From assembly GCA_036488875.1 (NCBI GenBank), contig DASXGW010000013.1:169281-233280 (forward strand): a stretch of DNA of 64,000 nucleotides. The letters are read 5' to 3'. The position numbers were made by a program, and so were the translations under genes. Below, in pieces: positions 44,842 through 49,500 of the stretch (the stretch's first letter is position 1; each line of letters opens with the position of its first letter). The notes beneath the pieces are model-generated. The model saw nothing but the letters and a program-made list of their open reading frames with translations. It was not told the DNA's origin and ran no database searches. Origin of the DNA: Candidatus Baltobacteraceae bacterium (GTDB taxonomy: Bacteria; Vulcanimicrobiota; Vulcanimicrobiia; Vulcanimicrobiales; Vulcanimicrobiaceae).

Positions 44842-47331
44842 GTGAGCGCCGCGAAGTATTCGCCGATGCTCGAGCAGTACTTCGGGATGAAAGGTAAGCA
44901 CCCCGAAGCGATTCTGCTGTCGCGCGTCGGCGATTTCTACGAAGCGTACGGCGAGGACGCCGAAACGATTGCGCGCGCGCTGCAAATAGCTCTGACGAGC
45001 AAGGAAGCCGGCGGCGGTAAACGCGTCGCTATGGCAGGCGTGCCGCATCACGCGCTGACGCAATACCTGGCGCGGCTGGTGCAGCAGCGCTTCATCGTGG
45101 CGCTGGCGGAGCAGTTGGAGGTTCCGCAGCCCAACAAGCTCGTGCGACGCGAGGTTGTGCGGCTCGTGACGCCCGGCACGCTGGTCGAGGAACAGCTGCT
45201 CGACGGGAAGCAGAACAACTATCTCGCCGCGATTGCCGCGATCGAAGAGACGTTCGCGGTCGCCTACGCCGACGTTTCGACGGGCTACTGCGCCGCGACG
45301 GCGTTCGGCGGCGAGAGTGCGTACGACGACGTCCTAACCGAGCTGGGCCGCATCGGACCCGCCGAGGTCGTGGCCGATCTGCCGGCCGGATTGCGCGCCG
45401 CGATGGGAACCGCGATCGAGAACGTCGGCGCGCGCTTGGCGGCCCCAGTGCTCGGTCTGGTCGAGGCGCGCCCGCGCGGCGCCATCGAGCAGTTCTCGCA
45501 CGACGAGTCGCTGGCGATCCATCGCGCGCTCGACGCGCTCGGCGCGTTCGTGCGTCGCACCGGCGTGACCAACGGCGACGGCGGACTCCAAACGCCGCAG
45601 TTTTACCGCAGCCAAACCTTTCTCGCCCTCGATCCGGCGACGCGTAAGAACCTCGAGCTCACGCGCGCACAGGGTCAGAACCCGCGAGCAACCTTGCTGG
45701 CGACGCTCGATCAGTGCGCGACGTCGATGGGATCGCGCATGCTGGCGCGCTGGATTCTCGCACCGCTGGTTGATCGCGACGCGATCGGCAAACGTCAAGA
45801 ATGCGTGGCGACGTTGCTGGAAGAACACGCATGCCGGCAGGCCGTTCGCGAGATTCTCAGAGGCTGTTTCGATCTCGAGCGAATCGCGCAGAAAGTGCGG
45901 TTCCGGCGTGCCGGTCCGCGCGATCTGGCATCGCTCCGGCGCACGCTCGACGTGTTGTTGCCGTTGCGCGCCGTGCTGCCGCGAGCGATCGTACCGATGC
46001 TCGACGGCATAGCCGATTTCTCCGGGCTATTAGATGATCTGCAGACGACGCTCGTCGACGAGCCTCCGGCGCTTCTGGGCGACGGCGGCGTGATTCGTCA
46101 CGAGGCCAATGCCGATTTGGCCGAGTGCATCGCGTTGCGGACCGACGTTCGATCGCGTCTTTCCGAACTCGAAGAACGCGAGCGGGAACGCACCGGCATC
46201 AAAACGCTGAAGATCAAGTACGCAAGCGCCTTCGGATACGCGATCGAGGTCAGCAAGAGCCAAGCCGGCAGCGTTCCGGCCGATTACGTTCGCAAACAGA
46301 CGCTCACGACGGGCGAACGATACATCACGCCCGAGCTCAAGGATCTGGAGCTGGCCATCTCAACCGCGCAGTCGCGACAGCAGCGTCTCGAGACGCAGCT
46401 CTTCGAAGCGCTCGTCGATCGCGTCGCCGCGCAGATCGACGATCTGCTGCAGGCTGCCGACACGATCGCGACCATCGACGCGCTCACGTCGCTGGCACAG
46501 TGTGCCGCCGAGCGCGGATACGTTCGGCCGGAGTTCGTCGAAGAAAGCGTCGTCGGGATCGAAGACGGACGCCATCCGGTGATGGAAGCCGTCTTGCGCA
46601 CCAACTTCGTTCCCAACGACCTACAGCTGCGCGACGACGGGCATCGTTTCATTCTGCTCACCGGACCGAACATGGGCGGTAAGTCGACGTACTTGCGTCA
46701 AGCCGGTCTGCTGGCGATCATGGCGCACGTCGGTTCGTTCGTCCCCGCCAAGAGCATGCGCTTGGGGATCGTCGATCGGATCTTCACGCGCATCGGCGCC
46801 GGCGACGACTTGGCATCGGGTCAATCGACGTTTTACATGGAGATGGCCGAAGCGGCGAACATCTTGCGGCGCAGCACGCATCGATCGCTGCTGTTGATCG
46901 ACGAGGTCGGTCGTGGTACCGGGACGCTCGACGGGCTCTCGATCGCTCAAGCGATCTGCGAGTTCTTGCTCGGTCTCGAGGAGTGGGCACCGATGGTGCT
47001 CTTTGCGACGCACTTTCACGAACTGTGCGCGCTGACCGAGCATTGGACGCAAGTAGCGAACTATCACATTACGGCGGTCGAAAATACCGCGCGCGGCGGA
47101 GCGCCGGTTTTTTCGCACCGCGTGCAGCCCGGCAGCTCCTCGCGATCGTTCGGTATCGAGGTAGCGCGTATGGCCGGATTGCCCGAAGCCGTCGTCGAGC
47201 GCGCGCAAGAAATCGCCGACGCGCTCTCGGGACACGCCGACGTGGAAGCGCAAGTACCATTGCGAAAGAAGATGCCCAAGAAGCCGCCGCAAGAACGCCA
47301 GTTGACGTTCTTGGGCGGCGATTCTTCTTAG
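44842..47331 (+). CDS. mutS: DNA mismatch recognition protein MutS
   Basis: An 829-residue MutS. The mismatch-reading Phe-x-Glu site is visible in RVGDFYEAYGEDA (about 29-41). The ATPase P-loop GPNMGGKST is at 608-616, followed by DDLASGQSTFYMEM, LLLIDEVGRGTGTLDG (Walker B) and ATHFHEL. A C-terminal extension (LRKKMPKKPPQE) is short. Start is GTG 44842. The 3' end overlaps the convergent selenoprotein gene by 4 bases. Confidence 0.96.
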   Translation: MSAAKYSPMLEQYFGMKGKHPEAILLSRVGDFYEAYGEDAETIARALQIALTSKEAGGGKRVAMAGVPHHALTQYLARLVQQRFIVALAEQLEVPQPNKLVRREVVRLVTPGTLVEEQLLDGKQNNYLAAIAAIEETFAVAYADVSTGYCAATAFGGESAYDDVLTELGRIGPAEVVADLPAGLRAAMGTAIENVGARLAAPVLGLVEARPRGAIEQFSHDESLAIHRALDALGAFVRRTGVTNGDGGLQTPQFYRSQTFLALDPATRKNLELTRAQGQNPRATLLATLDQCATSMGSRMLARWILAPLVDRDAIGKRQECVATLLEEHACRQAVREILRGCFDLERIAQKVRFRRAGPRDLASLRRTLDVLLPLRAVLPRAIVPMLDGIADFSGLLDDLQTTLVDEPPALLGDGGVIRHEANADLAECIALRTDVRSRLSELEERERERTGIKTLKIKYASAFGYAIEVSKSQAGSVPADYVRKQTLTTGERYITPELKDLELAISTAQSRQQRLETQLFEALVDRVAAQIDDLLQAADTIATIDALTSLAQCAAERGYVRPEFVEESVVGIEDGRHPVMEAVLRTNFVPNDLQLRDDGHRFILLTGPNMGGKSTYLRQAGLLAIMAHVGSFVPAKSMRLGIVDRIFTRIGAGDDLASGQSTFYMEMAEAANILRRSTHRSLLLIDEVGRGTGTLDGLSIAQAICEFLLGLEEWAPMVLFATHFHELCALTEHWTQVANYHITAVENTARGGAPVFSHRVQPGSSSRSFGIEVARMAGLPEAVVERAQEIADALSGHADVEAQVPLRKKMPKKPPQERQLTFLGGDSS

Positions 47332-47756
47332 AGGTTTGCTAAGACGTCCAAGGCGTGTCCCTTGACGTCGACCTTCGGCCACACCTTACGGATCGTGCCG
47401 CCGGCATCGATGAGAAACGTCGAACGTTGCGGATACTTTTCGTTTGGAACGCCGAACGCTTCGCACAGCTTTCCATCGGTATCGGCGAGCAGTGCGAACG
47501 GAATCGAGTATTTCTTTTTGAACGCTTGATGCGACTCGACCGAGTCGCAGCTCACTCCGACGATCCGGGCGTTTTTCGCTTGAAACTTTGCGTAAACGTC
47601 GCGGAACTGCGAAGCTTCGCTCGTTCAACCCGGTGTGTCGTCTTTCGGATAGAACCAGAGAACCAGCGGACCACCCAGTAGGCTCGTCGTGTCGACCTCG
47701 CGGCCTTCGTCGTCGAGCAGAGTCACCGCCGGCATTGTAGCGCCTTCTGCAATCAT
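47328..47756 (-). CDS. Selenocysteine-containing peroxiredoxin (BCP/PrxQ type), read through in-frame UGA
   Basis: A 142-residue thiol-peroxidase-type protein if UGA codon 44 (47625-47627) is read as selenocysteine. The first 43 residues (IAEGATMPAVTLLDDEG, LVLWFYPKDDTPG) are BCP/PrxQ. The next codon is TGA where the family has its peroxidatic cysteine (PKDDTPGC). Ninety-eight codons follow in the same frame: TSEASQFRDVY, IVGVSCDSVESHQAF, KYSIPFALLADTDGKL, AFGVPNEKYPQRSTFLID. The resolving cysteine of BCP, five residues later, is Ser. A hairpin like a bacterial SECIS lies just after the UGA. Start ATG 47756 gives normal family length. It lies between mutS and mutL, on the opposite strand. The alternative is a one-base nonsense mutation. 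Confidence 0.82.
47582..47618 (-). promoter_or_regulatory. Candidate bacterial SECIS hairpin
   Basis: Six bases after the UGA the mRNA reads GAAGCUU, C, GC, a loop beginning AGUU, then GC, A, AAGUUUC. GAAGCUU pairs with AAGUUUC (7 pairs, one G-U), then one C/A mismatch and two G-C pairs. The G at loop position 2 is 17 bases from the UGA, within the usual range for bacterial SECIS elements. The 17-base loop is larger than typical. Folding was done by eye. Confidence 0.55.
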
Positions 47757-47814
47757 GGGCGTGACGTTTATTGATGGAGGCAGCCTCTCCTTGGGGCCAG
47801 AACCGGTCGGCGTC

Positions 47815-49500
47815 GTGAAAATCGTGGAACTCGACGCGGTCACCATCGGCCAAATCGCGGCCGGCGAGATCATCGAGCGCCCGGCCTCGGTCGTCAAAGA
47901 ACTGGTCGAAAATGCGGTCGATGCCGGCGCGTCGCGCATTACGGTGATTCTCGAGCGCGGTGGAATCGATTCCATCGAGGTCGCCGACGATGGCGCAGGA
48001 CTCGACCGCGGCGAGTTGCCGCTAGCCGTGCGCCGCCATGCGACGAGCAAGCTCGCGACCGCGAGCGACCTGGAGTCGATTGCGACGCTGGGTTTTCGTG
48101 GAGAGGGTCTGGCGTCGATCGCCGCCGTTTCGCAACTCGAGATCGTTTCGCGCCCGTCGTCGGAGGAGGTCGGCGCGCGCGTGCGCGCACACGCGGAGCG
48201 CACGGAGGCCGTCGAGCCTGTAGCGTCGCCGCCGGGGACGCGCGTGCGCGTGGAAAATTTGTTCGGCAACGTGCCGGTGCGCCGCGAGTACCTGCGGTCG
48301 GCCCAGACCGAGTTCAATCGCATCTCGTCGTGGCTCTCCAGCTTTGCTCTAGCGTATCCGAAGGTAACGTTCGCGCTTCGGCACGACGGCAAGGACGTCT
48401 GGACGATGCCGCAGACCGCCGACGAACGCGAGCGGCTCGCCATGGTTTTCGGGCGCGATGCGGCACAGTGGCTGCTCCCGATCGACGAGTCGGCGGCGAG
48501 CACGTTGGATGGACGCCTGCGCGGTTACGTCAGCGCGCCGGGCCACGACCGCCCCGACCGGCGCATGCAGCTGCTCTTCGTCAACGGCAGGCTGCTGCGC
48601 AGCATCTTGATGGCGGGCGCCTGGACCGCGGGGTACGCAACGTTTGCGATGATCGGGCGTCAGCCGTACGGCGTGCTGTTTCTCGAGCTTTCGCCCGAAC
48701 ACGTGGATCCCAACGTGCATCCCACCAAGAGCGACGTGCGGCTGCGCTTTCCCAATCAGGTTTTCGAGGCGGCGCGCCGCGCGATCTCCGCGACTTTGCA
48801 CCGCGACGCATCCGCGCGTTTTCGCGAACACACTGCGCCGGCGGCCGGAGTCTCGGCGCTTCCCGACAGCGTCGACACGAGTTTGGCTCACGTGCAGTCG
48901 CTGTTCGAACGGCCGGTGGGCGACGCCGCCGACGTTCCGAGCCATCGTCTGCGCGTGCTCGCGCAGCTGCACCGTACCTACATCGTCGCCACCGACGGCG
49001 ACGCCCTGTTGCTGGTCGACCAGCACGCCGCGCACGAGCGTATCGCCTACGAATCGATCGTCGAGCGAGCCCGCAAACCTGCGCCGAACGAGCCGATGCT
49101 GGTGCCGCACGTCGTCGAGCTCGACGCGACGCAGAGCGCGGCGCTCGATCGCGTGCTGGAGACGCTCAACGAGGGCGGCCTCGAGATCGAAGGCTTCGGC
49201 GAGCGCTCCTATCGGATTCTCGCAACCCCAGCGGGCTTCGGCGCGCGGACGTTCGATCTGGGCGGTTTCTTGAGCGATCTCACGGAGGATCCCAAACAGC
49301 GCGACGTGCGCGAGCGCGTTTGGGCGTCGCTGGCGTGTCACAGCGTAACGATTGCCGGCGAACGTTTGGAACCCGAAGAGATGGCGACCCTGGTCGAGCG
49401 GCTGCAGCAGTGCGTCAATCCCATGCACTGCCCGCACGGCCGGCCGACGATGGTCCGGCTCGATCCCGGAGAGATCGCGCGCCTCTTCAAACGCACGTGA
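47815..49500 (+). CDS. mutL: DNA mismatch repair protein MutL
   Basis: A 561-residue MutL. The GHKL ATPase motifs are seen as IGQIAAGEIIERPASVVKELVENAVDAGA, ADDGAGLD and TLGFRGEGLASIAAVS. The C-terminal half has the endonuclease motif DQHAAHERIAYE and the zinc-binding-type CPHGRPT, so it should nick DNA. GTG 47815 gives the usual short N-terminus (MKIVELDAVTIGQIAAGE); an in-frame ATG at 47755 would overlap the start codon of the peroxiredoxin gene. The stop overlaps the miaA GTG. Confidence 0.95.
   Translation: MKIVELDAVTIGQIAAGEIIERPASVVKELVENAVDAGASRITVILERGGIDSIEVADDGAGLDRGELPLAVRRHATSKLATASDLESIATLGFRGEGLASIAAVSQLEIVSRPSSEEVGARVRAHAERTEAVEPVASPPGTRVRVENLFGNVPVRREYLRSAQTEFNRISSWLSSFALAYPKVTFALRHDGKDVWTMPQTADERERLAMVFGRDAAQWLLPIDESAASTLDGRLRGYVSAPGHDRPDRRMQLLFVNGRLLRSILMAGAWTAGYATFAMIGRQPYGVLFLELSPEHVDPNVHPTKSDVRLRFPNQVFEAARRAISATLHRDASARFREHTAPAAGVSALPDSVDTSLAHVQSLFERPVGDAADVPSHRLRVLAQLHRTYIVATDGDALLLVDQHAAHERIAYESIVERARKPAPNEPMLVPHVVELDATQSAALDRVLETLNEGGLEIEGFGERSYRILATPAGFGARTFDLGGFLSDLTEDPKQRDVRERVWASLACHSVTIAGERLEPEEMATLVERLQQCVNPMHCPHGRPTMVRLDPGEIARLFKRT

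Follow-up and report, generated by a model that had tools for sequence, protein, structure and literature searches.

The window analysed here, 64,000 nucleotides of a contig from a Candidatus Baltobacteraceae bacterium, contains a gene for a peroxiredoxin of the PrxQ/BCP type (Table 1). Its reading frame runs from an ATG at 47756 (or the in-frame ATG at 47735) to a TAA at 47328, and its sole interruption is the UGA at 47627-47625. The product is a member of the AhpC/TSA family (PF00578, E = 2.5e-37); the nearest NCBIfam models are those for PrxQ and thiol peroxidase, with scores below those models' cut-offs. The DDTPGU of the window aligns with DDTPGC of the cysteine-containing homologues, which puts the UGA exactly on the peroxidatic cysteine and gives the motif TPGU, an instance of TxxU with selenocysteine (Sec) predicted in place of the peroxidatic Cys. 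Its neighbours on the two sides are mutS and mutL, which are encoded on the opposite strand. This gene order (window 44842-49500; L017) is common to the window and a relative from the same genus, and mutS or mutL motifs beside the peroxiredoxin gene were seen in none of the other loci checked.

Table 1. Features of the peroxiredoxin locus, in window coordinates.
Feature	Position	Strand	Observations
Predicted Sec-peroxiredoxin gene, PrxQ/BCP type	47328..47756	minus	Translation with TGA = U; PF00578 match; Cys homologues align across the UGA
UGA codon, peroxidatic position (DDTPGU)	47625..47627	minus	TGA in 43 and TGC/TGT in 62 distinct homologues
Probable bSECIS hairpin (nested hairpin)	47590..47620	minus	11 bp, one U.C mismatch, one bulged A, loop AGUUCC; MFE -13.0 kcal/mol
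Apical loop AGUUCC	47603..47608	minus	G 47607 is loop position 2; 16 nt from UGA to loop
Alternative stem GAAGCUU/AAGUUUC, 17-nt loop	47582..47618	minus	Pairs exist but disfavoured; -7.5 kcal/mol, P <= 0.006
Competing hairpin GAAC-GA-GCGA/UCGC-A-GUUC	47604..47626	minus	8 nt to loop, too short; -8.3 kcal/mol, P <= 0.03

Homologues collected from public genomes and from 149 genomes of the Eremiobacterota, the little-studied phylum of this bacterium, amounted to 105 distinct sequences; the codon at this position is TGA in 43 of them and encodes Cys in 62. Those with TGA come from the Eremiobacterota, Acidobacteriota, Myxococcota/Syntrophobacter, Gemmatimonadota and Planctomycetota. The genome that contains the window (3.7 Mb, 97.6% complete) encodes a tRNA-Sec with anticodon UCA (78 bits), SelA (508 bits), and SelB and SelD, both above cut-off. 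The SelB includes SelB-wing_3 (PF09107), the winged helix that binds SECIS elements in known SelBs, and the selD gene has an in-frame UGA of its own. Given these Sec genes and more than 40 homologues with UGA at the same codon, the others having Cys, it is close to certain that the UGA is read as Sec in a PrxQ/BCP-type peroxiredoxin. From its sequence, the protein would be expected to have peroxidase activity.

The SelD of this genome (L057:1531, G000:C12) has its Sec in GUASK, which fits the UxxK motif, and its UGA is followed by a strong GGUC-loop hairpin at a spacing of 32-33. Directly upstream of selD is a gene for an ArsP_1-family permease (PF03773; L057:318-1466, G000:C12) with a UGA at 777. 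This UGA corresponds to the first Cys of the relatives' GMM[U/C]TCCT and is also found in two relatives from one other genus (L160 and L163); the hairpin behind it, GGCCGGU-GGUC-AUCGGCC, looks canonical. Against the known SO_0444 and SaoE models the permease scored below the cut-offs. It is probably a further selenoprotein of this genome. The folding energies of the SelD and permease hairpins are -17.6 and -14.6, respectively, and both have GGUC loops; the SECIS loop of Escherichia coli fdhF (GGUCU) is of the GGUC type as well.

Across the Eremiobacterota, SelA was found in 121 of 149 genomes and tRNA-Sec in 100 of 149. The Eremiobacterota are thereby added to the phyla where Sec decoding is common, and the literature that we searched contained no report of selenoproteins in them. 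In one genus (g35, G109-G116), all eight genomes are without SelA and tRNA-Sec, and the orthologues read there have Cys. The selA gene of a distant member of the phylum (G134:C21:69523-70815) has one in-frame TGA. SelA or tRNA-Sec is present in 33 of the 35 Eremiobacterota genomes with a UGA-containing peroxiredoxin, the remaining two being draft assemblies. The association of Sec rather than Cys in the peroxiredoxin with the presence of SelA or tRNA-Sec is weak (p = 0.08), because many genomes with the Cys form also retain the machinery.

The consensus constraints on bacterial SECIS (bSECIS) elements are a loop of 3-9 nt, an upper stem of 4-16 bp, an early loop G and 16-37 nt from the UGA to the loop, the G occupying one of the first two loop positions and usually being followed by G or U (PMC13188914, Fig. 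2). A further limit applied here is an MFE of -7.5 kcal/mol or below. A nested hairpin is the fold that dominates behind the UGA, its pair probabilities being 0.92-1.0 in each of three sequence contexts. Numbered from the base after the UGA, its pairs are 5-7/33-35, 8-11/28-31 and 13-16/23-26, enclosing the loop at 17-22. The 6-nt loop is within the permitted range, as is the upper stem, whether counted as 4 uninterrupted base pairs or, with one mismatch and one bulge included, as 11. The second loop base is a G with a U after it, and the 16-nt spacing is permitted, at the lower limit.

The original prediction had placed a bSECIS at this site and had drawn it as GAAGCUU paired with AAGUUUC, extended by two more pairs, around a 17-nt loop. 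All nine pairs are present (7-13/37-43 and, after a C.A mismatch, 15-16/34-35), and the loop does begin with AGUU, its G standing at position 18, separated from the UGA by 17 nt. The nested hairpin presents this same G. As drawn, however, the stem is not the favoured fold, and the shorter competing hairpin that the prediction had mentioned is likewise present but disfavoured (Table 1). The stable fold with a loop G in the permitted range, on which the prediction had hinged, exists as the nested hairpin. The idea of a bSECIS after the UGA, with the loop G unchanged, retains support from the complement of Sec genes, from the homologues and from the contrast of Sec with Cys forms described below; the exact stem with the 17-nt loop does not.

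Taken singly, the nested hairpin is unremarkable. Compared with dinucleotide shuffles it had a z-score of -0.9, and 39 of 200 shuffles were as stable. Its MFE passes the threshold, but a rule-passing bSECIS hairpin follows 36% of the 1278 TGA triplets in the window, and one at least as stable follows 7% (89). Tested against synonymous recodings of the same protein, the hairpin in its fixed place gave p = 0.18; when the best hairpin at any permitted position was taken, p was 0.09. On account of these three results, hairpin geometry alone carries little weight. A search of the window returned no Rfam matches at gathering scores.

In GC-rich genomes a rule-passing bSECIS hairpin is weak evidence by itself, and it is the comparison of Sec with Cys orthologues that carries weight. 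When any SECIS-compatible fold was accepted in a loose scan, the two forms were not separated: 95% of the Sec sequences passed, and so did 90% of the Cys sequences. An energy test at the fixed place gave p < 0.05 in 13 of 43 Sec and 9 of 62 Cys sequences; this test is weak because several Sec lineages place the hairpin elsewhere. We then used a tightened rule, chosen after the looser scan had been seen to fail at discriminating, under which the loop has 3-9 nt with a G among its first two bases and G or U after it, two closing pairs are present, the spacing is 16-37 and only the hairpin's own pairs are counted. With this rule the mean energy of the best SECIS-like hairpin was -10.9 kcal/mol among the Sec sequences and -5.8 among the Cys sequences, against a synonymous null of -4.1 in both, and the hairpin was better than the null at p < 0.05 in 21 of 43 Sec but only 7 of 62 Cys sequences. 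Averaged by genus, values of -7.5 or lower were found in 26 of the 32 genera with Sec and in 7 of the 33 with Cys (p = 4e-8 by Mann-Whitney test; for the Eremiobacterota taken separately, 6e-6). As a class, the predicted hairpin in Sec genera is convincing.

The pairing that the original prediction had expected among UGA-containing homologues is kept at the genus level, in most genera; it is broken in the closest relative of the window, L072, and in a few others, and the Sec members L094 and L103 contain no credible element in this place. The contrast between Sec and Cys forms has been corrected by genus and only partly by tree, since the peroxiredoxin tree, which is poorly resolved and based on few columns, has nine Sec/Cys changes in its best version but a single independent pair on well-supported branches, leaving that test underpowered. 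The window and L072 adjoin a well-supported Cys clade of 22, in which the inner stem could be either a remnant or a coding accident.

For the stem itself we turned to the sequences with Q-F at codons +6/+7, a set of 26 Sec and 45 Cys members. Here the inner four pairs fail to tell the two forms apart; they occur in Cys orthologues too because they encode S-Q-F-R-D. The outer pairs differ: pair 11-28 forms in 16 of 26 Sec but 3 of 45 Cys sequences, and the complete seven-pair stem 10-16/23-29 is found in 12 of the 26 and none of the 45. Six of these seven pairs form in the window, 12-27 being U.C, and four in L072, the only relative from the same genus. Within the Sec set, both sides have changed at three pairs, with compensatory examples in L106 (TCG/CGC to TCA/CGT) and L107 (GCG/GAC to GCA/GAT), and the covariation score was matched by 5 of 500 shuffles. 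Sliding the partner strand by 1-3 columns lowered pairing from 82% to 20-47%, and no slid register reached the covariation score. The loop G is the third base of a Gln codon, CAG in 25 of 26 Sec and 36 of 45 Cys sequences (p = 0.08). In the neighbourhood of the UGA, a clear rise in codon conservation among Sec members is confined, within the stem-loop, to Ala+4 and Gln+6 and does not extend over the whole stem.

These results bear on a second reading, on which the UGA does specify Sec but SECIS function resides in a different structure, for example a longer fold or a downstream hairpin, and the GC-rich coding of S-Q-F-R-D has produced the nested hairpin as a side effect. The inner stem of the Cys orthologues and the p values of 0.09-0.18 for the window would be expected on this reading, as would the situation in L072, where a strong hairpin, UCGCGC-AGUUC-GCGCGA, occurs further downstream at a spacing of 37 and the stem homologous to that of the window is disrupted. 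The window sequence, however, has no equally stable SECIS-like hairpin in the permitted range, the nested hairpin being the best there, and Sec members retain the outer pairs and the codon with the loop G more often than Cys members do. We consider this reading unlikely. That the GAAGCUU/AAGUUUC stem is itself the SECIS is highly improbable: its pairs are all there and its G is at a permitted distance from the UGA, but it is 5.5 kcal/mol weaker than the nested hairpin, which displaces it, and its 17-nt loop is outside the 3-9 nt rule. A TGA within a peroxiredoxin gene means termination in most bacteria, but a true stop here, whether through a pseudogene, a sequencing error or a truncated protein, is hardly credible given UGA at the same codon in 43 distinct homologues from several phyla, the intact frame downstream and the complete Sec machinery of the genome.

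The explanation that we favour, and regard as probable, is that the UGA encodes the peroxidatic Sec of a PrxQ/BCP-type peroxiredoxin and that the nested hairpin is its bSECIS. In the mRNA the hairpin, with the G of its AGUUCC loop 17 nt after the UGA, would act as the bacterial SECIS. With the ribosome at the UGA, the C-terminal winged helix of SelB, in complex with Sec-tRNA(Sec), would dock onto the hairpin, and Sec would be inserted in place of termination. We infer that this binding takes place and that the hairpin is necessary for readthrough.

The element varies among Sec-peroxiredoxin genes. Two types occur in different genera of family f3: L105 and L107-L109 have an AGUU loop at a spacing of 16, and L110-L116 have a GGUC-type loop at 28-29, mostly in the form AGUCAGC-GGUCU-GCUGACU at 28. 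In L046-L051 there is a GUU triloop at 17 within a GCG/CGC clamp. Such differences may perhaps reflect SECIS turnover within one orthologous gene, the UGA staying fixed as the hairpin changes place and type. On this tentative reading, the AGUUYC loop at a spacing of 16 in the window and most Eremiobacterota, the GGUC-type loop at 28-29 in L110-L116, the AGUUC loop at 37 in L072 and the GUU triloop of other phyla might all be products of that turnover; we hold it somewhat more doubtful than not. If it is true, a single SelB must read AGUU-type and GGUC-type loops within the same cell. The genome of the window, with GGUC loops behind the UGAs of selD and the permease gene, points to one of two options: a SelB that tolerates loops of both types, or a weak element in the peroxiredoxin gene. 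Orthologous Sec and Cys genes whose hairpins differ in type and place would offer a natural test of what SelB needs in a SECIS.

Like known bSECIS elements, such as that of E. coli fdhF (PMC13188914, Fig. 2), the nested hairpin is inside the coding sequence just past the UGA and has a small loop with G then U, a spacing of 16 and an MFE below -7.5. It differs in its loop, which is AGUUCC rather than the GGUC type seen in fdhF and, within this genome, behind the UGAs of the SelD and permease genes, and, as a candidate SelB target, in an upper stem broken by one U.C mismatch. Closer to it are the hairpins of the Myxococcota/Syntrophobacter Sec-peroxiredoxins (L046-L051, GCGG-GUU-CCGC), which are in the same gene and share G-U-U at positions 18-20 after the UGA and an outer clamp at 10-12/27-29, but whose inner stem is shifted in register by one, producing the GUU triloop. 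Peroxiredoxins with Sec in a TxxU motif form an established family of selenoproteins (PMC13188914; PMC1088965); the family (PF00578/COG1225) was first shown in Eubacterium acidaminophilum, and 43 of its genes were present in the Sargasso Sea set (PMC1088965). The window protein is of the same family, with its predicted Sec at the peroxidatic Cys and TPGU as its TxxU, and differs in coming from the Eremiobacterota and in being known here from sequence. The Sec-peroxiredoxin and its bSECIS are probably a further case of these known types, with a fold that differs from the stem drawn earlier.
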